DNA of 64,000 nt, from contig NZ_JACAWU010000002.1 in the NCBI RefSeq assembly GCF_013391635.1, positions 62,001-126,000 on the forward strand, written 5' to 3'. The translations under genes were made by a program, and so were the position numbers. This document shows positions 5,798 through 17,132 of this stretch, piece after piece. The notes beneath the pieces were generated by a model that saw only the letters and a list, made by a program, of their open reading frames with translations, made no database searches and was not told where the DNA came from. The DNA is from Natronomonas gomsonensis (GTDB lineage: Archaea > Halobacteriota > Halobacteria > Halobacteriales > Haloarculaceae). Position 1 is the stretch's first letter, and every line of letters begins with the position of its first letter.

Positions 5798-7288
5798 ATG
5801 GACAGTCCACCGTCCCGTGTGGGCGACCGAGCGCAGTCGTCGCCCATCGGCATCGTGCTCATCCTCGGGATTACGCTCACGGGTGCGGTCGGACTCGCGG
5901 TTTTCGGTGGTGCCGCACTCGACGACGCCCAACAGGACTCCCGGGTCGGACAGGCCGAACAGTCGATGACGCAGTTCGACTCTCAGGCCGCCCAAGTCGC
6001 CTTGGGTGAATCCGACTCCCAGCGGGTACAGTTCGGGTCCAACAGCGGCCAGTACTCCGTCGACGAAGACGCCGGAAACGTCCGGCTGATTCACAAGAAC
6101 TGGAACGAGAGCAATACAACTGACCACGAGTACGAAATCTACAACGCGTCGCTCGGTTCTGTTGTCTACGAATCCGGCGACAGCGAACTCGCCTATCAGG
6201 GTGGCGGCGTCTGGCGGACCGACGACGACGGCGACGCACGACTCGTCTCCCCGCCGGAGTTCCACTATCGACGTGCGACGCTGACGTTCCCCATCGTCCG
6301 CGTTTCCGGCGATGACAGTGTCAGCGGCTCCGCGAGCGGCCGAATCTCCCGCGTGAAAACCGCAGACCGGATATTCGCCAATCAAAGTGAGACCTACCCC
6401 GACGGCAGCACGAAACTCCTGAACCCGGTCCAGAACGGGAACATGACTGTCGAAATAACGAGTCGGTACTGTGAGGGCTGGCGGGATTACTTCGAGGAGC
6501 GGACCGACGGTACGGTTTCCGACTGCGACAGCGACGGAACCGTCACCGCACAACTCGTCACGCTCGGGACGCAGGGTGCGTTCAACGTGCTTGACGGCCA
6601 AGAGCTGAACATCCGCGGCATGGAGAGCGGTCACTCGCTGGACGAACTTGAGATTACGTTCGTGGACTCCAGCGGGCAGAGCTCCGACTTCAACAACTTC
6701 GGGTGGTCGATGTACGGCGAGGACGACAACGGTACCGAAATCGAAATGTACGTCGAAAACAACGGGGGCGGTAATCTCGACTGTGATGCTGGTGAAACTT
6801 GGAACACGACAGTCGTCTTCTACTACAGCCCTAACAGCGGTGATGACTATCACACATGGGTCAACGACGAGAACAACGGGGATGGCAATTTCCAAATCGC
6901 CTGTAATGGTGACGACGAGCCGGAACTCACCGTCGACTTCACCAGTGGAAGTACCAACCTCACGTACAAGGATTATCGTGACTTGAATATAAAAAATGAC
7001 CTTCAGGCAGACCCTGATACCGACGGATTTAACGACACTGTCTCGTTTAGCGAACATTCCGACGACAACGCGAGTATCACGTATCCGGACGACCGGGATC
7101 AAGAACCGGCGGAATTACCGGTCAACCACTACTTCGCGATGGCCGATGACTTGGACATGGAAGTCTGGGAGCAAAACAACGCTAATATAGGCGACGACTC
7201 ACAGGGCCTCATCCAATACGAGGGCAACGGTGAAGTCGTCACGTTCCTCCACGTCACCGACAACCAGATTCGGGTCGAACTCGACTGA
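5798..7288 (+). CDS. Large pilin-like secreted protein (DUF7289-like)
   Basis: This 496-residue protein has a pilin-type N-terminus: basic residues, then RAQSSPIGIVLILGITLTG and a single hydrophobic helix at about residues 16-40. The remainder is a long acidic, Asn/Asp-rich extracellular part with several Cys residues and many N-x-S/T sequons. It is transcribed toward the PilB/PilC operon and ends 5 bases from the last gene of that operon. By context it is a candidate substrate or minor subunit of that filament or secretion system. Three-fold repeats of Asn-Gly-Asp stretches in 6710-6920 could bind calcium. Confidence 0.75.
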   Translation: MDSPPSRVGDRAQSSPIGIVLILGITLTGAVGLAVFGGAALDDAQQDSRVGQAEQSMTQFDSQAAQVALGESDSQRVQFGSNSGQYSVDEDAGNVRLIHKNWNESNTTDHEYEIYNASLGSVVYESGDSELAYQGGGVWRTDDDGDARLVSPPEFHYRRATLTFPIVRVSGDDSVSGSASGRISRVKTADRIFANQSETYPDGSTKLLNPVQNGNMTVEITSRYCEGWRDYFEERTDGTVSDCDSDGTVTAQLVTLGTQGAFNVLDGQELNIRGMESGHSLDELEITFVDSSGQSSDFNNFGWSMYGEDDNGTEIEMYVENNGGGNLDCDAGETWNTTVVFYYSPNSGDDYHTWVNDENNGDGNFQIACNGDDEPELTVDFTSGSTNLTYKDYRDLNIKNDLQADPDTDGFNDTVSFSEHSDDNASITYPDDRDQEPAELPVNHYFAMADDLDMEVWEQNNANIGDDSQGLIQYEGNGEVVTFLHVTDNQIRVELD

Positions 7289-7293
7289 CGCCG

Positions 7294-8061
7294 TCAGGTC
7301 AACTCCACGTCGATGCGGACCCGTGAGACCGCCAGCGAGTCGACAGTGAACCCATAACAGACGACTCGGTCGGTCGTCGCGTCGACGTTGGTCGTCTCAC
7401 AGTAGTCGCTCGAAGTACCCGTTGTGGCCTCGATTTCCCGCTCGAAGTACGACTCCCACACCGGCGCCCGCTCGGGATTGGTCCGCATCCGTATCGTCAC
7501 GTTCGTCGCGGGGCTTTGAGTGGTTAACAGCCGGCTGCTCTGTTTTTCGCCCCGAACGAGCGTCGTCGTCGACCCACCAACTCCTTGACCGCTCCCCCGT
7601 GCCGAAATGTATCGAACGACGGTTCGGTTGTCGGCAAAGAGGAAATCCGGCTCACGAATCATCACCGCGTTCCCGTCGTCGACTCGTATCACGGCACCCA
7701 ACTCGTAGACGATTTGGCTGCCAGTCCCCGAATCGTACCGAATCGCGACTGGGTTCGCCCCCGCAGCGGTGTCGATTCCCGACGCGTTAATCGTGGTCAG
7801 TCGGTTCGATGTCGTCGACAGCGAGGCCTCCGAGAGCTTGATTTCGGTCGCCCGGTTCGGCGCGTCACCGCTGGCGAGCTGTTCGAAGTTGTTCGCCATC
7901 ACGTCGAAGGCCCGCTCGGCGTTGTTGACGCGCTCGGCGTCACGCGTGGCGTCCAACCCACCGAACCCGCCGGCGTAGACGATGGTAACCGTCCCGATGA
8001 CGAGCGTGAACACGAGGACGAACCCGACGACCTCGCTGACCGCCCGCTCGTCGCTACTCAT
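7294..8061 (-). CDS. Pilin-like protein (DUF7289-like)
   Basis: This 255-residue protein starts MSSDERAVSEVVGFVLVFTL. The DERAVSE motif before a hydrophobic helix (about residues 10-30) is close to the archaeal pilin N-terminal domain cleaved by prepilin peptidase. The rest is an extracellular beta-rich domain with two Cys near the C-terminus. It is the last gene of the PilB/PilC operon and overlaps the previous gene by 8 bases. Its N-terminus resembles that of the convergent 5798-7288 protein, so the two may be paralogues. Confidence 0.8.
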   Translation of the reverse strand: MSSDERAVSEVVGFVLVFTLVIGTVTIVYAGGFGGLDATRDAERVNNAERAFDVMANNFEQLASGDAPNRATEIKLSEASLSTTSNRLTTINASGIDTAAGANPVAIRYDSGTGSQIVYELGAVIRVDDGNAVMIREPDFLFADNRTVVRYISARGSGQGVGGSTTTLVRGEKQSSRLLTTQSPATNVTIRMRTNPERAPVWESYFEREIEATTGTSSDYCETTNVDATTDRVVCYGFTVDSLAVSRVRIDVELT

Positions 8062-8512
8062 TCGACACCTCCAGTTCATCGTCGGCCGAGTCGTAGCTGA
8101 CGACCACCTCGCCACCCCCGACGCCGTTCGTCGCGAGGTCGGTCATCGAGGCGATGCCGACCGTGACCGTGACGTCCGGTCTGGCCGTCGACAGTTCGAG
8201 GTAGTACTCGGTTGGCCCACTGCCGTCGTCCTTGACGGTTATCGTGTACGACGATCCGACGATTCTGTCCGGAAGGTCACGTCGAATGGCAACGTCTTCG
8301 GCGCCGTTCGTTCGTGCGAGTCGGTCGGCGGCCGAGATGTCCGCCGACAGCTGTTGTCCGATTACCTGCAGCTGGTTTTCCGTCGTCTGTTGGCGCTGGT
8401 CGTCGACGTAGCCGGTCGCGGCGACCAACAGCCCGACGATGAGAATCGTCGTGATGCCGAGCGTCAACACGTAGCTGAACACCGGCGACACCGCACGGTC
8501 CCCCCCGGTCAT
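8054..8512 (-). CDS. Pilin-like protein (DUF7266-like)
   Basis: This 152-residue protein starts MTGGDRAVSPVFSYVLTLGI. The RAVSP motif and following hydrophobic helix are the hallmark of archaeal type IV pilin-like proteins. The remainder is a small beta-rich extracellular domain. The ATG overlaps the stop codon of the upstream gene (ATGA), which decides this start over one five codons earlier and suggests translational coupling. Confidence 0.8.
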   Translation of the reverse strand: MTGGDRAVSPVFSYVLTLGITTILIVGLLVAATGYVDDQRQQTTENQLQVIGQQLSADISAADRLARTNGAEDVAIRRDLPDRIVGSSYTITVKDDGSGPTEYYLELSTARPDVTVTVGIASMTDLATNGVGGGEVVVSYDSADDELEVSNE

Positions 8513-9576
8513 TTTACCACGCTCCATTCAGCCTCGATTTCGTCGCTCCCGTGGACGACGCCGTCACTTCGGAACTCGGCGTCGACGGTCACCGCGTGGA
8601 TGATGCTGCGCGCGCGCGGATTCGTAGCCGTACCCGGCCCGTAGTAGGGCGTCCGGTCGGCGCGCGTGTCGACGACGAGTTCGTAGGTTCCTCGCGCACG
8701 GTCAGTCTCTCCCAACAGTCCAAGTCCGGTCGCGCTCGTCCGAGCGTTCCGGTAGTGGATGTGGTGGTCCGTACCGACGACGCTCGTGTTGTAGAAGCCG
8801 AGTTCGGGACAGTTGGTGGCGTCGGTGCCGAATCGCGGCTCACGGAAATCGATGGTCGCACTCGACCCGGTCGCACCCGCGACACAGGAGTCAGAGACGA
8901 GCGCGCTCAGGTTCGACAGGGCACCGATGTCGTCGCCGGGGTCGACGACGTAGAGGTACACTTCACCGGCAGTGCCGTCCCGGAACATGTACACCTCCCA
9001 CGTTCCGCTGGGCGTCTCGACTGAGACGTGAAACGCGTTGTCGCTGACGGCAGCGAGGGGGTCGGAAAGCGTATCGAAGTCGGTGATATTGAGTAGACTC
9101 GCCCGGTCGATATCGAGGACGAACGGGCCGGCCTCGGTAGTGTCTTCGACGAGCGTCCAGTTCGCATCGCCGGCGAGGCTCCCACCCGCCGTGAGGTTCC
9201 GGGAGGCGTTCGTCTGCCGAATCTGTGTCCCCTCCGTCGTCGAGTTCAGTTCGGTCGACACGAGTCGACCCGTCCGGAGTTTCTCGGCGCGCTGTGAGTC
9301 GGCCCACAGCGTCAAGCCATCGACGAAGGCGTCGCGCACCACACCGTAGTCGTCGGTCGTCGCGTTTCGGTTCGCCGTGTCGATAAGCGATTGAACGTCT
9401 CCCTCGGTGACGTGACGCTGTTCGAGCGCCTCCCGCGGTTCGTCACTGGACTCCCGCGTCGAGAGGTTCTCGGTGTAGATGGCTCCGTTGACCACGAGCG
9501 CGAGTCCGATGAGGATGACGGCGATGAGGAGTCCGGTGACCAAGATGAGTTGGCCTCGCTGCCCTACATCCGCCAT
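8509..9576 (-). CDS. Pilus-operon membrane-anchored protein (DUF7261-like)
   Basis: This 355-residue protein starts MADVGQRGQLILVTGLLIAV. A single N-terminal hydrophobic helix (about residues 9-31) follows RGQ, as in pseudopilins. The large extracellular part has two Cys (SCVAG and NCPEL) that could form a disulfide. It sits in the middle of the PilB/PilC operon and overlaps the preceding gene by 13 bases and the next by 4. It is probably the largest accessory subunit of the filament. Confidence 0.78.
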   Translation of the reverse strand: MADVGQRGQLILVTGLLIAVILIGLALVVNGAIYTENLSTRESSDEPREALEQRHVTEGDVQSLIDTANRNATTDDYGVVRDAFVDGLTLWADSQRAEKLRTGRLVSTELNSTTEGTQIRQTNASRNLTAGGSLAGDANWTLVEDTTEAGPFVLDIDRASLLNITDFDTLSDPLAAVSDNAFHVSVETPSGTWEVYMFRDGTAGEVYLYVVDPGDDIGALSNLSALVSDSCVAGATGSSATIDFREPRFGTDATNCPELGFYNTSVVGTDHHIHYRNARTSATGLGLLGETDRARGTYELVVDTRADRTPYYGPGTATNPRARSIIHAVTVDAEFRSDGVVHGSDEIEAEWSVVK

Positions 9577-10145
9577 ACGACCACCTCGACGCGGACGACG
9601 TTGTACACCGACCCGCTGTTTCCGGTGTCCTCGGGGATGAAATCGCTGTAGTTTCCGGCGTTCTTGACGGTAGTTGACTCGTGGCCGGGCGCGGTCAGGT
9701 TGTCGTCGTCGAACAGGACCACCGTCCGACTCGCGCTGACCGCGTTGTCGCTCGGTTCTCCACGGTACACCATCGGGACCGCATCGTTCCCGTCGCCCGG
9801 ATACAGGAGGACGTTCACCGCGAGCCCCCGGCCACCGAACGACCGGTCGGTGATGTTGCCGAACTCGTTGGGAGGTTCGCCGTTGGTGTAGTAGATTCGC
9901 CGCTCGGCCTCGTCGAATTCGGCGGCGGTTTCGTTCCAGTACAGGACAGCGTCCTTCAGCACGCCTGCTTCCTCCGCGGCAGTGAGCACGCCCGCCGCGG
10001 AGGCGCGCTGTTGGTTCTCGATGTGTTGATTCGAGGTACTCGCCGACAGCGGCGTCACCGCCGTCACCTGCAGGGCGAACACGAGACTCGTCACTATCAA
10101 CACGGCGGCGATGACCGACTCCAAGGTGTAGGCTTGCCCACGCAT
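9564..10145 (-). CDS. Pilin-like protein (DUF7288-like)
   Basis: This 193-residue protein starts MRGQAYTLESVIAAVLIVTS. It has the pseudopilin-like pattern of a short basic start, Glu within the hydrophobic segment (the Glu5-like residue of type IV pilins), and a helix to about residue 28. The rest is extracellular. It lies one base after the previous gene of the operon. Confidence 0.78.
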   Translation of the reverse strand: MRGQAYTLESVIAAVLIVTSLVFALQVTAVTPLSASTSNQHIENQQRASAAGVLTAAEEAGVLKDAVLYWNETAAEFDEAERRIYYTNGEPPNEFGNITDRSFGGRGLAVNVLLYPGDGNDAVPMVYRGEPSDNAVSASRTVVLFDDDNLTAPGHESTTVKNAGNYSDFIPEDTGNSGSVYNVVRVEVVVWRM

Positions 10146-10146
10146 G

Positions 10147-10737
10147 TTACCACACGCTCACCCGGAGCGTTACGTCACACGACTGTACGTCGGCGCCGAA
10201 CGAACAGCCCGGGACAGTCATCACGCGGCGGGCGACGGTAATCGAGTCCGTGTCGGGTGGTTCCTCGCCGATTTGATACTTGCTGTCGGATTCGCAGGTA
10301 CCGGACTCTTCGTGGATGATGTCACCGTTGGAGTCGACACACACCACCCGATAACGGTCGCTGCCGGTCTTCTCGGGGTCGACGTGTAGCAACTCGATTC
10401 GGAGGTCGAGCCGGTCGCTGAGCCCCACCCGTTCGTTGAGGCCCGTCCCGTTGTACCCACAGCCGGCGGGAATGTCGGTGTAGTCCTGTTGCCCCTCGTC
10501 GAAGAACACCGTCGCACAGGTCTGGTTGACGACGAACGGTTCATCCGGGTTCCCCAACGCCCCCTCCGAGAGGTGACTCGCGACCCGGTCGGAGGCGACG
10601 CTTTGGTCCTGGTCGCCGTCGACGAACGGCGCTGTCAGCGAGGGGATGAACGTGAACACGAACGACACCGCGAGCAGGAAGATTCCCATCGCGATGGCGA
10701 AATCGAGCGTCGTCTGTGCGCGGGTTCGTGATGCCAT
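10147..10737 (-). CDS. Pilin-like protein (DUF7287-like)
   Basis: This 196-residue protein starts MASRTRAQTTLDFAIAMGIF, with RAQTTLDF before a hydrophobic helix (about residues 10-32), the class seen in archaeal pilus and arl operons. The extracellular part contains six Cys residues, some of which may form disulfides. It is the first gene after PilC, separated by 4 bases. Confidence 0.78.
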   Translation of the reverse strand: MASRTRAQTTLDFAIAMGIFLLAVSFVFTFIPSLTAPFVDGDQDQSVASDRVASHLSEGALGNPDEPFVVNQTCATVFFDEGQQDYTDIPAGCGYNGTGLNERVGLSDRLDLRIELLHVDPEKTGSDRYRVVCVDSNGDIIHEESGTCESDSKYQIGEEPPDTDSITVARRVMTVPGCSFGADVQSCDVTLRVSVW

Positions 10738-10741
10738 TCTA

Positions 10742-12763
10742 TTACACCATCATGAACACGATGAGCGCGAGCGTCGGCAACACGACGACGTACTTCAGTC
10801 CCGCCATGAGGCTCACGTCGCGGATGTAGCCGGCGATGAATCCCGAGATGATACCCTGCAGTGTGACCGCATGGAAGAACAACATGGTCAGCATCTCGAT
10901 GTCGAGGCCGCCGCCGAACTGTCCACCCCCGCCGCCTCCGCCGCTTTCGGCCTCGGAGGCCTGCTGGGTCAGTCCCGCCATCGTATCGAGGAACTCGACT
11001 TTCAGCAGGGCCATCACACCGAGCAGCGTGACGTAGGTCATGATGATGATGACCATCTGCATTCGCGTCTGCGACTTGCGGTTGCGCTCGATGTCGTCTT
11101 GGTTCTCGGAGGCCTGTGCGGCCGTCGAAAGCACCTGCGTAATCTGACTTGATGCCTCCTGAGCCTTCGAGATGAGCTTCACGGTCCGAGCCATCCGCGG
11201 GATGTGGTACTTGTTGTTGAACTCCCGGAGGGCCGTCTTGAGACTCGTCCCGTAGTTCACCTTCGCGTGCATCGTTCGGAACTCCTCGGCGAGCCGCCCC
11301 GAGGAGGTGTCGGCGACGATCTTCAGCGACTCCAGCAGCGTCATCCCGGTGTCGTTCGCGCTCGATAGCTTCCGGAGGTTATCCGAGAGGTTCTTCGTAA
11401 TCGAGTTCCGGGAACGGACGTTCCACTCGTGGAAGATCGTCAGCGGAATGAAGTTGACGTACAGCGGGAGATATATCAGGAAGAACGTCCCCCTGACGGG
11501 CGAACTCACGAGTCCATCGGACGTCGTCGGTGCGAAGCCCGCCATGATGCTAAAGGCGAGCAGCACCAAGGACGCGGGGAACGTAATCGCAAGCACTGCA
11601 AGCGGGTAATCCCGGAAGAACAGGTGGGGCTGTTTCAGCAGGTTCAGCGTGACGTAGGTCCCCTCCTTGGATTTGATTCGGTCGAAGATGCCGTAGCGGC
11701 CGGCGTAGCTCTCGGCGATACCGAGGTCGAACATCTTCTCGGATTCGTCGACGATTTCGCCGTCCTCGACCGAGAGGTAGCCGTCGCCGACCTCGTCTTG
11801 GACAACCGTCGAGACGAGAACGAGAAAGCCCACGCCGATGAGCGGAATCAGCCCGTAGACGGTGCCGTACAGCAGCATATCCTGAGCCTCCCCGAGCATC
11901 GACATGATGACGAGGATGATGATGAGGAGCAGGGGGAACAACGACAGCGTCATGTACATCTCGCCGAAGAGTTCCAGCGTCTCCAGAACCATCTGCTGTT
12001 CCTGCTTGGAGGTCCGCATGTGCTTTTCTTTCTGGTCTTCGAGGAACTTCTCCATGTCACCGCCCGAATTGATGATAGAGAGCATGTCCGTCAGGAACTG
12101 GCTCAACTCGTCCGAGGGCGTCTGTAGCGCCTGGTTCCTGACTGCCGTCCGGTAGTCGGTGTCGAAGTACTCCGTCTCGAGGACGATGGACTGGAACTCC
12201 TTTGCCACCTCGCCGTAGGTGTCGTCGGCTTTCGCCATCGCCTGGAGGATTTCGAGTTGGTTGAGGCCGCCGACCGACAGTGCGTACATGAACGACACCG
12301 AATCGGACAGCAGGACGTTGATTTCGCGTTTCCGGGCGTCGGAGTCGAGGTACGGTTTGGCGACCATCCCGCCGAAGGCCGACCCGAACCCGATGGAGCC
12401 GAAGAACAGCCCCGAGATGATGACGATGAACGGTATTTTCAGGGAGTTGACGATGGAGAGATACGGCTCGGGCATCGGCAACGCGAGGAAGGTGGGCGGC
12501 TCGGTGATGACGAACGTGACGAGTCCGTAGCCGAGCAGCGTCCCGACGACCCACAGCAGGAATCCGGTGATGACGCCCAACGCGAGCGACTTCGAGAGGT
12601 ATATTTCGACGGTTTCCGGGATACGTGCCTCTGCCAGTTTCGTCTCGAGGTTCGCGACGAAGTCGCTGTCGTCGTCGAACAGCCGCTGGTAGAGCGGGTA
12701 AAACAGGTCCGCGAGGATGTCCGTCCCGCCAGAGGAGGCCCCGCCCGCCGACTGGAGGCTCAT
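10742..12763 (-). CDS. pilC: PilC/TadC-type platform membrane protein of an archaeal type IV pilus
   Basis: This 673-residue multi-spanning membrane protein contains two type II secretion F (TadC/ArlJ-like) domains, at about residues 130-290 and 490-620. Each has a cytoplasmic helical region and is flanked by membrane segments. A Gly-rich run (GGGGGGGQFGGG) lies near residues 605-620. It forms the membrane platform on which the PilB ATPase acts to assemble pilin subunits. Its ATG overlaps the stop of pilB (ATGA), so the two are translationally coupled. The length is within the range of haloarchaeal PilC proteins. Confidence 0.9.
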   Translation of the reverse strand: MSLQSAGGASSGGTDILADLFYPLYQRLFDDDSDFVANLETKLAEARIPETVEIYLSKSLALGVITGFLLWVVGTLLGYGLVTFVITEPPTFLALPMPEPYLSIVNSLKIPFIVIISGLFFGSIGFGSAFGGMVAKPYLDSDARKREINVLLSDSVSFMYALSVGGLNQLEILQAMAKADDTYGEVAKEFQSIVLETEYFDTDYRTAVRNQALQTPSDELSQFLTDMLSIINSGGDMEKFLEDQKEKHMRTSKQEQQMVLETLELFGEMYMTLSLFPLLLIIILVIMSMLGEAQDMLLYGTVYGLIPLIGVGFLVLVSTVVQDEVGDGYLSVEDGEIVDESEKMFDLGIAESYAGRYGIFDRIKSKEGTYVTLNLLKQPHLFFRDYPLAVLAITFPASLVLLAFSIMAGFAPTTSDGLVSSPVRGTFFLIYLPLYVNFIPLTIFHEWNVRSRNSITKNLSDNLRKLSSANDTGMTLLESLKIVADTSSGRLAEEFRTMHAKVNYGTSLKTALREFNNKYHIPRMARTVKLISKAQEASSQITQVLSTAAQASENQDDIERNRKSQTRMQMVIIIMTYVTLLGVMALLKVEFLDTMAGLTQQASEAESGGGGGGGQFGGGLDIEMLTMLFFHAVTLQGIISGFIAGYIRDVSLMAGLKYVVVLPTLALIVFMMV

Positions 12764-15192
12764 CGGTCGGCTCCGTCCTCCTCCCCGCCGTCCGGCGCCG
12801 CCTCTCCGTCGCCGGTCGACTCCTCGGTCCCTCCGGCCGCGTCGAAGGAGAACCCGCCGGTGCTGAAGTCCTCGCCGTCGTCATCGTCGTCCGGCGGCTC
12901 GATGTCGTCCGCCTCCTCGATTTCGAGTACGCCGGCGATGCCCTCCTCGACTTCCTTGCCGCGGTAGCTATCCAGGAGGTCCGTCGCCTCGTCGAGAATC
13001 TCCTGACAGTGTTCGTGCATGTCCTCGCCGGCGGAGGGACGTGGCACCATCGCCTCCTTGTCGGGGTCGATGTCGATTTCGACCGACTCCATCTCCCGGA
13101 GGTCCTCCAGGGAGCGTTCGAGGTCGTCGTTGGCGATGATGGTGAGGATGCTCTCGGGGTCGTTGATGAACGCCTGCAGCGTCGCGGCGACCTGCGTGTA
13201 GGTGTTCAGTCCCTCGTCGATGAGGTACGCGAGGACGATTTTCCGCATGAAGATCTCCTCGTCGACTTCCTCGCGGGACCACCCGCGGTCGAACATGATT
13301 TCGTCCAGGGTGTTCGACTCGCCCATCTGGAGGAACTCGTCGCTTTCGGCCTGCCACTGGTAGACGTCCTGAACGTTGATTTCGTCGTTTTCGGGGTCGT
13401 AGTGGTTAATTTCGGTCAGCGACTTGTTCCGGCGGACCTTGTTGCCCTGCACCCGCGTCGAGGTCTGAATCGAGACGAGGTCCAGCGCCGTGAACATCGT
13501 CTTCGAGACGTTGATGGGGTCGGTGGTGAAGCGCTTGATGACCTCGCCGACGGAGTCGGCGTGGAACGTCGTCAGCGTGGTGTGACCGGTCGACATGACC
13601 TGGAACAGCGTCCGACCCTCCTCGCCCCGAATCTCACCCATGACGATGTACTCGGGTCGCTGTCGGAGTGCGGCCTCCAGCAGGTCGAACTCGTCGACGT
13701 CGCCTTTGTCGCCGTCGGAGAAGGAGGGTCGGGTGACGCTCGCAATCCAGTTCCGCTGGGGGAGTTCGACCTCCCGGGTGTCCTCGATGGAGACGATTTT
13801 CGCCTTCGAGGGGATAAAAAGCGACACCGCGTTCAGCGAGGTGGTCTTCCCGGATGCAGTACCCCCGGCGAAGATGAGCGACTTGTGGTTCTCGATACAG
13901 AGCCACAGGAAGGCCATCTCCTCCAGCGAGAAGGTGTTCCAATTGATGAGGTCGACGGGCGTAAAGGGCACGTCCTTGAACTGCCGGATGGTGTAGTTCG
14001 TTCCGTGGTCGGACACCTCCCGGCCGAGGGTCAACTGCGAGCGTGACCCGTCCGGCAGCGTCGCGTCGACCTGCGGGCTTCGCTTCGAAATCCCCTTCCC
14101 GGAGCGTTGGGCCATCTTCACGACGAAGTCGTCGAGTTCCTCCTCGCCGTGGTAGATGTTCGAGATAATCTGCTCGTAGTCTGAGTGATACACGAAGACA
14201 GGGGAGTTGTAGCCGTCACAGGAGATGTCCTCGATGTTGATGTCGTGTTTGATGCCGTCGATGCGCTCGAAGCCGATGAAGTCCCGCTTCAGGAGGTACA
14301 GTAGCTTCTCGATTTGGTACTCCGTCAGGGTGCTTGCGTCCTCCTCGATGATGGCGGGTTCCGGTCGGGCCTCGACGCCCTGCAGTTGTGTCGCCTCCGA
14401 GTCCCGCTCGCGCTCTTCGTCGTCGAGTCCGAGTATTCCTTTGACGCTATCGACGAAGGATTCGTCGTCGGGGGCCGCACCATCGTCGTAGAGGTCGTAT
14501 CGGTCGAGGAGGGCGTGGGTCTCCCGTTCGATGACGCTGGCGCGGGCGTCTTCGTCGCCCTCGACGACGACGTCGTCGCTGGAGTACTTGATTGCGGTTT
14601 TCAGTTTCCCGGAGAGGAACTCCCGGAGGTCGGACTCGATGGGGGTGAGATGCGGCTCGATGACGTAGTACTTCTTTTCGTTTTCCTTCTCGGAGTGGAA
14701 GATGATGACGAAGGCGTACGGTTTGTTCACCCAGTAGCGGTCGACCTCCCGGAAGTGGTGTTTCTTCTCCTGTGGGACGGCCTTCTCGAGGTCGTAGCGG
14801 TTGACGACGGTGGTGTTACCGTCGGCGTCGGCGAAGAAGGCGTCCTCGTCGAGTTCGGGGTTGACGCGGACGGTCCGCTCGTTTGCGATGTCGGTGAGTT
14901 GGGTGGAACCGAGGCCGGCAGCGCCGACGATTTCGCTCGTGTCCTCGGGGTCGAAGCCGAGGTACTCCGAGGGGTCGAACTCCTCGTCGGCGGGGGCGTT
15001 GCCCTGCTCGTCGTAAAAATACTCCTCCTTGAAATCCTCCCAGTCGTACTCACCGACGACTGCGGGGTCGGATTCTTCGGGTTCGGACGCCGAATCGGCC
15101 TCCGCCTCCAACTCCGCCGACTCCGCGTCGGTGGCGTCGACGGCCGGTCCCCCGGTACCGGCCTCTCCGCCGTCAGCGTCATCGATAGCCAT
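12760..15192 (-). CDS. pilB: PilB-type assembly ATPase of an archaeal type IV pilus
   Basis: This 810-residue cytoplasmic ATPase belongs to the type II/IV secretion (GspE/ArlI) family. The first 150 residues are strongly acidic. The Walker A motif GGTASGKT is at about residues 443-450, and a Walker B-like EYIVMGEIRGEE is at about 514-524. It should drive assembly of the pilin-like proteins encoded downstream. I chose the ATG ending at 15192 (MAIDDADGG); a GTG two codons earlier is also open. A TATA-like CTTTTTCAAAG is centred 27 bases upstream. It is the first gene of the seven-gene operon. Confidence 0.92.
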   Translation of the reverse strand: MAIDDADGGEAGTGGPAVDATDAESAELEAEADSASEPEESDPAVVGEYDWEDFKEEYFYDEQGNAPADEEFDPSEYLGFDPEDTSEIVGAAGLGSTQLTDIANERTVRVNPELDEDAFFADADGNTTVVNRYDLEKAVPQEKKHHFREVDRYWVNKPYAFVIIFHSEKENEKKYYVIEPHLTPIESDLREFLSGKLKTAIKYSSDDVVVEGDEDARASVIERETHALLDRYDLYDDGAAPDDESFVDSVKGILGLDDEERERDSEATQLQGVEARPEPAIIEEDASTLTEYQIEKLLYLLKRDFIGFERIDGIKHDINIEDISCDGYNSPVFVYHSDYEQIISNIYHGEEELDDFVVKMAQRSGKGISKRSPQVDATLPDGSRSQLTLGREVSDHGTNYTIRQFKDVPFTPVDLINWNTFSLEEMAFLWLCIENHKSLIFAGGTASGKTTSLNAVSLFIPSKAKIVSIEDTREVELPQRNWIASVTRPSFSDGDKGDVDEFDLLEAALRQRPEYIVMGEIRGEEGRTLFQVMSTGHTTLTTFHADSVGEVIKRFTTDPINVSKTMFTALDLVSIQTSTRVQGNKVRRNKSLTEINHYDPENDEINVQDVYQWQAESDEFLQMGESNTLDEIMFDRGWSREEVDEEIFMRKIVLAYLIDEGLNTYTQVAATLQAFINDPESILTIIANDDLERSLEDLREMESVEIDIDPDKEAMVPRPSAGEDMHEHCQEILDEATDLLDSYRGKEVEEGIAGVLEIEEADDIEPPDDDDDGEDFSTGGFSFDAAGGTEESTGDGEAAPDGGEEDGADR

Positions 15193-15213
15193 TACCACAC
15201 CCCTTTGCTGCCC

Positions 15214-15335: not shown

Positions 15336-16478
15336 CTACGAGACGAACCGCTCGAGTCGGTCCATCGCTTCTTTCAGTTCGTCGAGACCGGTCGCGTACG
15401 ACGCCCGGAGGTGTCCGTCGGCGCCCGCGCCGAAGGCGTTCCCCGGAACCATCGCGACCTGTTCGGCCTCCAGGAGTTCCTCGGCGAACTGTTCGGCGTC
15501 CTCGCCAGGGCACTCCGGGAAGACGTAGAACGCACCGGTCGCCTCGAAGCAGTCGATGCCCATCTCCTCGAACCGAGAGAGGACGAAGTTCCGACGACGG
15601 TTGTACTGGGCGCACATCTCCTCGACGTCTTCCCGGCAGTTCCGGAGTGCCTCGATGGCGGCGTACTGGGCGGTCGTCGGCGCCGATAGCATCGTGTACT
15701 GGTGGATGCGGTTCATCGCGGCGATGACCTCGCTCGGCCCCATCGCATAGCCCAGTCGGAGCCCGGTCATCGCGTAGGCCTTCGAGAACCCGTTGAACAC
15801 GACGGTTCGCTCGCGCATCCCGTCGAACTCCGCGATGGAGACGTGCTCGCCCTCGTAGGTGAGGTCGGCGTAGATTTCATCGGAGAGGACGGCCACGTCG
15901 TTCTCCCGGCAGAACTGCGCGATTTCGGCCAACTCCTCGCGGTTCATCGTCGCGCCGGTCGGGTTGTTCGGGAAGCAGTAGACGAGTAACTCTGCCTCGG
16001 CGGCGCCGGCCTCGTACAGTACCTCGGGGGTGAGTTTGAACTCGTCTTCGACGCGGGTCGGTACGTCGATTACCTCCCCGCCGGCGAAGGTGACGCCCGG
16101 TTTGTAGGAGACGTAACAGGGTTGGGCGACGGCGACGCTGTCGCCGGGGTTGACGAGCGCCCGGAACGCGATGTCCAGCGCCTCGCTGGCCCCCGCGGTG
16201 ACGAGGATTTCGTCGTCGGGGTCGTATTCGAGGTTCCAGCGGCGGGCGTCGCGGGCGATTTCCTCCCGGAGTTCCCGCATCCCGCGGTTTGCGGTGTAGG
16301 AGGTCTGGCCGCGTTCCAGCGAGGTGATGGCGGCTTCGCGGGCACCCCACGGCGCCGAGAAGTCGGGTTCGCCCACGCCCAGCGAGATGACGTCGTCCAT
16401 CTCCTCGGCGAGTTCGAAGAACCGGCGGATGCCGGAGGGCGGCACTTCGGCGACGCGGTCGGAGGGTCCCAGCGTCAT
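15336..16478 (-). CDS. Class I/II PLP-dependent aminotransferase
   Basis: This 380-residue protein belongs to fold-type I, the aspartate aminotransferase superfamily. Key residues visible are FPNNPTG (169-175), D200 and Y203 of the LSDEIYA segment, the Schiff-base lysine K233 in FNGFSKAYAMTG, and R241 in GLRLGY. A C-terminal RASYATG Arg could bind the substrate carboxylate. It probably transfers amino groups between an amino acid and 2-oxoglutarate, but the specificity is unknown. Its start overlaps the stop of the upstream Lrp gene (ATGA), so they form a coupled pair. Confidence 0.9.
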   Translation of the reverse strand: MTLGPSDRVAEVPPSGIRRFFELAEEMDDVISLGVGEPDFSAPWGAREAAITSLERGQTSYTANRGMRELREEIARDARRWNLEYDPDDEILVTAGASEALDIAFRALVNPGDSVAVAQPCYVSYKPGVTFAGGEVIDVPTRVEDEFKLTPEVLYEAGAAEAELLVYCFPNNPTGATMNREELAEIAQFCRENDVAVLSDEIYADLTYEGEHVSIAEFDGMRERTVVFNGFSKAYAMTGLRLGYAMGPSEVIAAMNRIHQYTMLSAPTTAQYAAIEALRNCREDVEEMCAQYNRRRNFVLSRFEEMGIDCFEATGAFYVFPECPGEDAEQFAEELLEAEQVAMVPGNAFGAGADGHLRASYATGLDELKEAMDRLERFVS

Positions 16479-16963
16479 GGCGTGACCGACAGGCGGTCGT
16501 CGTCACCGCCGTCGTCGAAGCGGTGGCCGCTCTGTTTGTAGGTTTCCATGATGTAGTGAGTGACCGTCTGGGTGATTTCGGGCAGTGGCGCGACCTTGTC
16601 GCTGATGAATCGCGACACTTCACGCATGTTGTCGCCCTCGACTTCCAGCGCGAAGTCGTAATCACCCGAGACGAGTCGAAGGCCCTGTACCTCGGGGAAG
16701 CCGGCGAGTCGTTCGGCCACGTCCCGATAGCTCGTTTCGCGGTCCAGCGTGACGTTCAACTCGACGTGGGCCTGCACCCGCTGGTCGTCGATTTCGTCCC
16801 AGTCGACGACGGCGGTGTAGCCCTGGATGACCCCCTCGGCCTCTAGCTCGTCGATGGTCGCCTCGACCTCGGCCTCGGTACGGCCCGTCAGGCGTGCGAG
16901 GTCCCCCGTGGAGTAGCGGGCGTTCTCACACAGCAACTCGAGGAGTTCGTCGGGTTGGTCCAT
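16475..16963 (-). CDS. Lrp/AsnC family transcriptional regulator
   Basis: This 162-residue protein has an N-terminal winged HTH (about residues 5-50) and a C-terminal RAM effector domain (about 70-145) with the pattern VSGDYDFALEVEGDNM. It probably senses an amino acid and controls the co-transcribed aminotransferase. The ATG ending at 16963 (MDQPDELLELL) is the family-like start; a longer frame upstream is not conserved-looking and runs through the promoter region. Confidence 0.9.
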   Translation of the reverse strand: MDQPDELLELLCENARYSTGDLARLTGRTEAEVEATIDELEAEGVIQGYTAVVDWDEIDDQRVQAHVELNVTLDRETSYRDVAERLAGFPEVQGLRLVSGDYDFALEVEGDNMREVSRFISDKVAPLPEITQTVTHYIMETYKQSGHRFDDGGDDDRLSVTP

Positions 16964-17039
16964 ACGGAATACGACGCTACTGCGAACTAAAACGTTGCGA
17001 GGCATCGCTACGCCGTCCCACGCCGACGGCGCTCTTAAT

Positions 17040-17115
17040 ATCACGAACGATAATGTGGTCTGGCATATAAGGTCATGCCTTGGTATATTATCTCTCGATA
17101 CTATTATTATCCCTA
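17040..17115. promoter_or_regulatory. AT-rich divergent control region between the Lrp gene and a small HTH-like gene
   Basis: The sequence contains several TATA-like stretches (GGCATATAAGG, TATATTATC, ACTATTATTATC) in GC-rich surroundings. It lies between the minus-strand Lrp gene and the plus-strand gene at 17133. The elements nearest 17100-17110 are correctly spaced for the plus-strand gene. Confidence 0.45.
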
Positions 17116-17132
17116 AGACCATCCGAACGAGT

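Follow-up and report, generated by a model that had tools for sequence, protein, structure and literature searches.

A putative surface pilus locus of haloarchaea pairs a conserved motor with exchangeable filament genes

A locus in Natronomonas gomsonensis probably builds a surface type IV filament in which a conserved motor serves an exchangeable recognition module, most plausibly displayed at the tip. Its motor is strongly conserved, whereas the six filament proteins are swapped between species as one unit and bear swappable outer domains; this pattern suggests a pilus for recognition or adhesion, with an outer end under pressure to change. The locus is probably the copy, in this salt-loving archaeon, of a known, almost universal and experimentally neglected haloarchaeal surface filament, the PilB4/pil-2 pilus, which is present in about 94% of sampled haloarchaea and has no known function.

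Motor and prepilins at one locus

Within the 64,000-nucleotide stretch of DNA analyzed (the window), the locus comprises a minus-strand operon of pilB, pilC, and five pilin genes, together with a sixth pilin gene convergent on the plus strand. The PilB4-type assembly ATPase (12760–15198, 812 aa, likely internal ATG start at 15192) is followed by a PilC4-type membrane platform (10742–12763, 673 aa) and by genes for pilins of the DUF7287 (10147–10737), DUF7288 (9564–10145), DUF7261 (8509–9576, pilin-like), DUF7266 (8054–8527, likely ATG start at 8512), and DUF7289 (7294–8115, likely ATG start at 8061) families. The convergent gene, at 5798–7288, encodes a large modular pilin. ORF coordinates and strands agree with those of the sequence-only reading that first drew attention to the operon, and its spacings of 4, 1, 13, 4, and 8 bases are reproduced with the internal starts of the DUF7266 and DUF7289 genes. 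The same gene order occurs in about 110 loci across the class, so the arrangement is not due to chance; the order 7287-7288-(7261)-7266-7289 within the motor operon is also seen in Haloferax, Halobacterium, Natrialba, Halorussus, and others.

Both the cognate assembly ATPase and the platform expected of a type IV filament machine are encoded. PilB contains a T2SSE domain (PF00437, E = 2e-30, residues 370–583) flanked by N- and C-terminal extensions, with PilB3_C above the Pfam cut-off and PilB3_N under it, and its best PDB match is the archaeal GspE 2oap over residues 250–686 (FlaI, 4ii7, was also matched). Relatives of this ATPase are 783–1469 aa long, and the PilB3 orthologue of the same genome, a separate gene at locus L067, is 541 aa (all lengths are those of maximal ORFs). 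PilC matches T2SSF in two stretches (PF00482, E = 4e-28). PilB is 65–76% identical to its orthologues across the class and at most 44% identical to paralogues in its own genome, where a profile search found seven further T2SSE ATPase matches. The corresponding values for PilC are 59–81% and at most 33%, which places the ATPase and platform in a distinct orthologous group. One Peptidase_A24 (PibD) match in the genome (E = 3e-13) indicates that a prepilin peptidase is present.

The DUF assignments of the sequence-only reading were all borne out by Pfam above curated cut-offs: DUF7287 (PF23958, E = 7e-36), DUF7288 (PF23959, E = 5e-63), DUF7261 (PF23922, E = 5e-9), DUF7266 (PF23928, E = 1e-33), and DUF7289 (PF23960, E = 1e-52). 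The convergent protein joins a DUF7289 stem (PF23960, E = 1e-28, residues 11–251) to a DUF7308 head (PF23985, E = 5e-40, residues 271–475). The pilin-like N terminus proposed for these proteins holds in all six families, each of which keeps a class III prepilin site before the hydrophobic tract in most or nearly all homologues. This motif is present in 113/113 homologues of DUF7287 (site R-A/Q-T-T-L-D, with Asp at +5 also in 113/113), 112/114 of DUF7288 (R-G/Q-A, with a Glu invariant in 114/114), 97/100 of DUF7261, 101/110 of DUF7266 (a PilA-like RAVSP site, with a weak Pilin_N match), 115/117 of DUF7289 (RAVSE), and 51/60 of the convergent pilin. Predicted folds of DUF7288 (a 57-residue helix, 3–59, with a beta-sheet head; pLDDT 88.5) and DUF7266 (a long helix, 15–73, and 7 strands; pLDDT 92.9) are lollipop-like, as would suit a pilin, in which an alpha-1 helix of about 50 residues carries a beta-rich head. 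Foldseek searches of these two models against the PDB gave no match at E ≤ 0.001 (best E 1.4 and 0.2, respectively), with the Natrinema PilA2 pilus (8gi2) listed only at E = 0.61, and we claim no structural kinship from them. DUF7266 is our candidate for the major pilin.

Motor and pilins also occur together. Among 194 haloarchaeal genomes, 182 have both pilC and a cassette marker, 7 have neither, and only 5 have one alone; a PilC orthologue is found in 184/194 (E ≤ 1e-120). The idea of a shared machine had been staked on such co-occurrence with pilB/pilC, and these counts support treating motor and cassette as one machine, as well as the view of the pilins as distinct, minor-subunit-like components of a multi-component filament.

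Exchange of the cassette and of its outer heads

Filament genes are replaced between close relatives behind a nearly unchanged motor. In Haloferax larsenii and H. elongans, PilC is 98.8% identical and DUF7288 only about 29%, with similarity ending at the pilC stop codon. Across 134 close pairs (PilC at least 84% identical), DUF7288 falls below 45% in 16, drawn from Haloferax, Halorussus, and one Haloarculaceae genus, and in those 16 the other pilins, where present, diverge equally. Exchange breakpoints coincide with the pilC stop codon on one side and fall past the convergent gene on the other; in other genera this gene is exchanged jointly with the five operon pilins. At the level of sequence comparison, the six pilins thus travel together as one unit, with the motor conserved. 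Extra whole cassettes lacking a motor are often present in Haloarculaceae, and a DUF7288 tree in which many inner branches are weak places several of these orphan cassettes and the motor-adjacent ones as old, separate types. Per-gene presence counts undercount DUF7287, since some maximal ORFs overlap pilC, and no frequency was taken from them. Searches of the open-access literature on haloarchaeal pilin hypervariability turned up no account of cassettes being exchanged at this locus, and searches of the same literature under these DUF names yielded no paper.

A second, finer exchange affects the outer heads. Across the cassette, DNA identity between the window and Natronomonas sp. CBA1123 is 95%, interrupted only at 6646–7228, the plus-strand segment encoding the variable head of the convergent pilin (approximately residues 283–478). 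There the head is 43% identical to that of CBA1123 but 73% identical to that of a more distant species (locus L190), although the stem is 91–92% identical to both. Relatedness of the head is thus reversed relative to the flanks, as head replacement would produce. A search of 391 genomes for the donor found nothing closer than a sister species, the 73% relative lying outside those 391. In Natrialba and one Haloarculaceae genus the locally variable part is instead the DUF7261 head, with local loss of DNA similarity in three locus pairs (L094/L095, L096/L097, and L170/L171). Relatives of the convergent protein carry CARDB, VWA, and PPC domains.

Proposed function and alternatives

These patterns can be drawn together in a model of assembly. 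After insertion through their hydrophobic helices, the six prepilins would be processed by the genome's one PibD peptidase, and the PilB ATPase would assemble them on the PilC platform. One co-adapted set, made up of the five operon pilins, would provide the filament and its initiating or tip complex, and the convergent modular pilin would display its bulky outer domain for adhesion or recognition, probably at the tip or close to it. In this model the motor is a conserved common base, the six filament genes are a compatibility unit swapped together, and the outer heads, on the sixth protein and on DUF7261, are exchanged or diversified locally. In a more ambitious form, which we hold tentatively and at somewhat less than even confidence, the locus would be a recognition device polymorphic at two levels, with a fixed motor, swappable six-gene cassettes (some stored without a motor elsewhere in the genome), and a swappable head carried either by the large tip pilin or by DUF7261, driven by escape from viruses or by self/non-self choice of partners.

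An ATPase, a platform, and several different pilins make up an operon plan common to type II secretion systems (T2SS) and Gram-positive ComG, and DUF7261 and the DUF7308 protein are large for pilins. The locus could on these grounds encode a short pseudopilus acting as a T2SS-like protein secretion piston, with no long surface filament. We consider this unlikely, and less likely than a surface type IV pilus: Pfam recognized no secretion-specific component in the operon, a piston needs neither hypervariable, exchanged outer heads nor the adhesin-type domains of relatives, and the literature (PMC4858521) places PilB4/pil-2 among type IV pili. The pseudopilus-type secretion machine offered by the sequence-only reading gained no positive evidence.

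Another motor, such as PilB3-PilC3, could be the main assembler of these pilins, leaving this motor accessory and its link to the cassette positional rather than functional; this too is rather improbable. Orphan cassettes with no adjoining motor exist, and PilB3 can substitute for PilB1 in H. volcanii (PMC6491452). However, 7 of the 10 genomes without this PilC also lack the cassette, and exchanged cassettes stay at this motor's locus. A filament for taking up DNA, for natural transformation or as food, seems very improbable, even though the system is near-universal and its gene plan resembles the comGA-GB plus five pilins of Gram-positive ComG. The genome lacks a ComEC-type Competence domain (no match to PF03772; a control search was positive in 10 bacteria and in no archaea, so archaea may have a different channel), and head variability suits varying recognition partners better than DNA. 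Least probable is that the differences between close relatives reflect fast substitution rather than block exchange: pilins do outpace PilC everywhere (median DUF7288 identity is 67% among pairs with PilC at least 84% identical), but flanks of 93–96% DNA identity give way at the pilC stop to a cassette at the level of unrelated sequence, H. mucosum and H. elongans have one common cassette type (about 70–77%) against other Haloferax, and the relatedness of heads runs opposite to that of flanks.

Under the preferred reading, a surface filament for recognition or adhesion, the filament is delimited by the pattern of exchange as a unit of six proteins, two of which, the sixth protein and DUF7261, stand out as the subunits most likely to face outside. 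Natural paired alleles (H. larsenii with H. elongans, and the window species with CBA1123) make adhesion, choice of mating partner, and virus receptor use testable. In H. gibbonsii, pilB4 and pilC4 transcripts fall upon infection with HFTV1 (PMC12542753), which makes the question of viruses concrete.

Relation to known pilus systems

Architecture and exclusion suggest that the locus belongs to the PilB4/pil-2 kind of haloarchaeal pilus and is equivalent to HVO_1160 and OE1347R. The claim that the system and its role were undescribed holds for the function but is not supported for the system. In Halobacterium salinarum R1, pil-2 (OE1347R to OE1332R) comprises seven co-transcribed ORFs, three of them FlaFind-positive, and is restricted to haloarchaea as the second system beside the PilB3-like pil-1; the pilC2 gene of R1 contains an in-frame stop, and the function of pil-2 was called questionable (PMC4292770). 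Like the window locus, pil-2 combines PilB, PilC, and small pilin genes. Halobacterium relatives show PilB-PilC-DUF7287-DUF7288-DUF7266-DUF7289 and a convergent protein, but lack the DUF7261 present here.

In the available text of Makarova et al. 2016 (PMC4858521), PilB4-PilC4 of Haloferax volcanii (HVO_1160; clade 2, Fig. 4B) has an ATPase extended by Halobacteria-specific N- and C-terminal regions, an operon carrying its own pilins, and a duplicated 250–550 aa pilin, arCOG02911, which probably corresponds to DUF7289/DUF7308. The window ATPase is likewise extended at both ends, with pilins in the motor operon; that text describes neither block exchange nor head variation. A profile search found a DUF7288 match in H. 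volcanii, where pilB4 and pilC4 are expressed (PMC4371748). No filament has been seen for the PilB4/pil-2 system. The PilB3-PilC3/PilA adhesion pili of Haloferax share a homologous motor and class III prepilins but differ in that their motor operon lacks pilins and belongs to a separate orthologous group.

Two more distant systems resemble the proposed display of a variable module. A hypervariable Ig-domain module has been described in Thermococcales (PMC8416519), an archaeal surface module with a hypervariable protein; the likeness is one of description. Streptococcus sanguinis PilB is an adhesive, modular vWA pilin whose tip position was shown (PMC8179133). It is bacterial and no sequence relation is claimed, but it too carries a large functional module on a pilin stem, and vWA occurs in some relatives of the convergent protein, for which a position at the tip would be the counterpart.

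Gene content and pilin signatures

Pfam assignments and gene layout confirm the operon described in the sequence-only reading. An assembly ATPase (T2SSE), a platform protein (T2SSF) and five tightly spaced or overlapping small genes (DUF7287, DUF7288, DUF7261, DUF7266 and DUF7289) lie on the minus strand of this haloarchaeal chromosome (7294-15198), and a sixth gene (DUF7289+DUF7308; 5798-7288, plus strand) is convergent to them. Because Pfam places the proteins in these families, the DUF names given in that reading are all correct. Pfam cross-hits suggest two pilin sub-lineages, 7287/7288 and 7266/7289/7308, with DUF7261 standing apart. Among named relatives, Natronomonas sp. CBA1123 is the nearest (PilC 97% identical). 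Directly upstream of pilB are aminotransferase and Lrp/AsnC-type regulator genes (15336-17122); many Haloarculaceae loci, as well as those of Natronomonas and Halococcus, have the same pair before pilB.

All six families carry pilin signatures. Scored at the alignment column of the window's own site in homologues from ~110 loci, the prepilin motif [KRDE][GA][ALIFQMVED][ILMVTAS] is present in 113/113 DUF7287, 112/114 DUF7288, 97/100 DUF7261, 101/110 DUF7266, 115/117 DUF7289 and 51/60 DUF7308-type homologues, with a hydrophobic tract after it in every case. Two invariant acidic residues, Asp at +5 in DUF7287 and Glu in DUF7288 (+6 counted from Gln), bring to mind the Glu found at +5 in bacterial pilins. 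The genome (3.38 Mb of sequence) encodes one PibD-type prepilin peptidase. AlphaFold2 models of DUF7288 and DUF7266 predict a helix of >50 residues with a beta-rich head, a layout described as universal for type IV pilins (PMC8179133); neither model significantly matched a solved structure.

Association of motor and cassette

Of 194 genomes sampled from the class, 185 contain DUF7288 and 184 a close PilC homologue (E <= 1e-120). The two occur together in 182 and are both missing from 7, which span several families; 3 genomes have only DUF7288, and 2 that are Halococcus-like have only PilC (Fisher's exact test, P = 2e-9, phylogeny ignored). The order PilB-PilC-7287-7288-7261-7266-7289 recurs with few exceptions, often with the convergent large pilin alongside. 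Halobacteriaceae lack DUF7261, the Natrialbaceae loci seen lack the convergent gene, and in Halococcus PilB-PilC is retained alongside one larger protein of DUF7289-like type. At Halococcus-type loci (L142 7851-13652, L145, L187 and L188) this protein, of 530-647 aa, replaces the five-pilin cassette, and a Big_1 Ig domain is present at L187. The Halococcus wall is unusual and rigid, and cassette loss may therefore be linked to it. A strongly diverged system in another genome (L189, G174; PilC ~30% identical) still has a cassette with unchanged gene order, in which there are apparently two DUF7289-like genes and no DUF7261 was found. Elsewhere an in-frame stop breaks the pilC orthologue (L177, genome G140), or the orthologue is fragmented and DUF7288 is also absent (genome G157), recalling the in-frame stop reported in pilC2 of Hbt. 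salinarum R1 (PMC4292770).

Within the window's family, two or three DUF7288 genes occur in 27/41 of the genomes sampled, and two copies of the PilC orthologue in only one (counted by hand). Each extra cassette is a complete five-gene set that lies in tandem or at a distant site lacking PilB/PilC. A single motor may thus serve two types of filament. The window's own genome also holds a stand-alone paralogue of the convergent pilin (L073 7429-8850; contig C2 ~595.4-596.9 kb), with a stem 44% identical, no match to the head and no other cassette genes detected in the 15 kb covered, and a second motor locus with diverged PilB/PilC (L070 7266-11376; contig C1 ~1.06 Mb) and DUF7289- and DUF7266-like genes nearby.

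Exchange of cassettes and heads

Among 134 locus pairs with PilC >= 84% identical (pairs not being independent events), DUF7288 is <45% identical in 16, which belong to Haloferax, Halorussus and one Haloarculaceae genus; where both loci have DUF7261, DUF7266 and DUF7289, identities are just as low for these. H. larsenii and H. elongans DNA is 93.6% identical until two bases past the pilC stop, where similarity disappears (the H. larsenii contig ends shortly beyond, and the comparison covers the pilC side). Between H. prahovense and H. mucosum similarity is lost exactly at the pilC end and returns ~400 bases beyond the convergent gene, while two further loci (L173 and L180) are 96.4% identical until 4 bases before the pilC stop, with similarity again returning beyond the convergent gene. 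H. mucosum and H. elongans have a second cassette type in common, about 70-77% identical. At the level of sequence, these comparisons show a pilin block that behaves as an exchangeable unit. Given breakpoints at the pilC end and beyond the convergent gene, all six pilin genes, the convergent one included, travel together, which is independent evidence for one functional unit.

Exchange also appears to act on single heads. At DNA level the cassette region is 95% identical between the window and CBA1123 except at 6646-7228, which codes for the convergent protein's DUF7308 head. In a three-way comparison, window and CBA1123 (L191) are 95% identical in the flanks and 91% in the stem, yet head identity is 43% with CBA1123 versus 73% with a more distant species (L190) whose flanks are only 91% identical to the window; the final 18 residues are conserved again. 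This relatedness, opposite to that of flanks and stem, fits head replacement in CBA1123. In Natrialba pairs and one Haloarculaceae pair (L170/L171), similarity is lost locally inside DUF7261 and neighbouring pilins are conserved. Convergent proteins of Haloarculaceae reach 700 to ~2,200 aa (maximal ORFs) and carry CARDB, VWA or PPC domains, in most cases on a pilin-type N-terminus. At L172-L179 and L182-L184, the convergent genes adjoin motor-adjacent cassettes and encode pilin-like proteins of ~1,300-2,200 aa with CARDB, VWA and PPC domains.

Proposed filament and known systems

Most likely, PilB and PilC would assemble PibD-cut pilins into a filament on the cell surface. The filament and its initiating complex would be made of the small pilins, and the large modular pilin, in some lineages together with DUF7261, would present a variable outer surface. 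A bacterial parallel is the S. sanguinis tip pilin that bears a vWA module. A secretion pseudopilus has less support, as does a DNA-uptake device, a domain search having found no ComEC domain in the window's own genome. The variation could be driven by virus escape or partner recognition; the fall in pilB4/pilC4 transcripts in H. gibbonsii infected by HFTV1 (PMC12542753) is only suggestive of a virus link. We found no description of cassette and head exchange at the PilB4/pil-2 locus in the open-access literature, and such exchange makes pilus function testable.

Motor/cassette co-occurrence, recurrent order and joint exchange of six genes support the proposal in the sequence-only reading of a shared machine. 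In architecture the system is one already on record, as PilB4 (PMC4858521) and pil-2 (PMC4292770). Makarova et al. 2016 place H. volcanii PilB4 among clade 2 ATPases, with Halobacteria-specific N- and C-terminal additions, and describe its own pilin set and a 250-550 aa pilin prone to duplication (PMC4858521). The window ATPase has 812 aa, whereas the PilB3 orthologue of the same genome (L067) has 541 aa. Losensky et al. report pil-2 of Hbt. salinarum as seven co-transcribed ORFs, three of them FlaFind-positive, found in haloarchaea only (PMC4292770). From matching architecture and by exclusion, we conclude that the window locus is a member of the known PilB4/pil-2 system.
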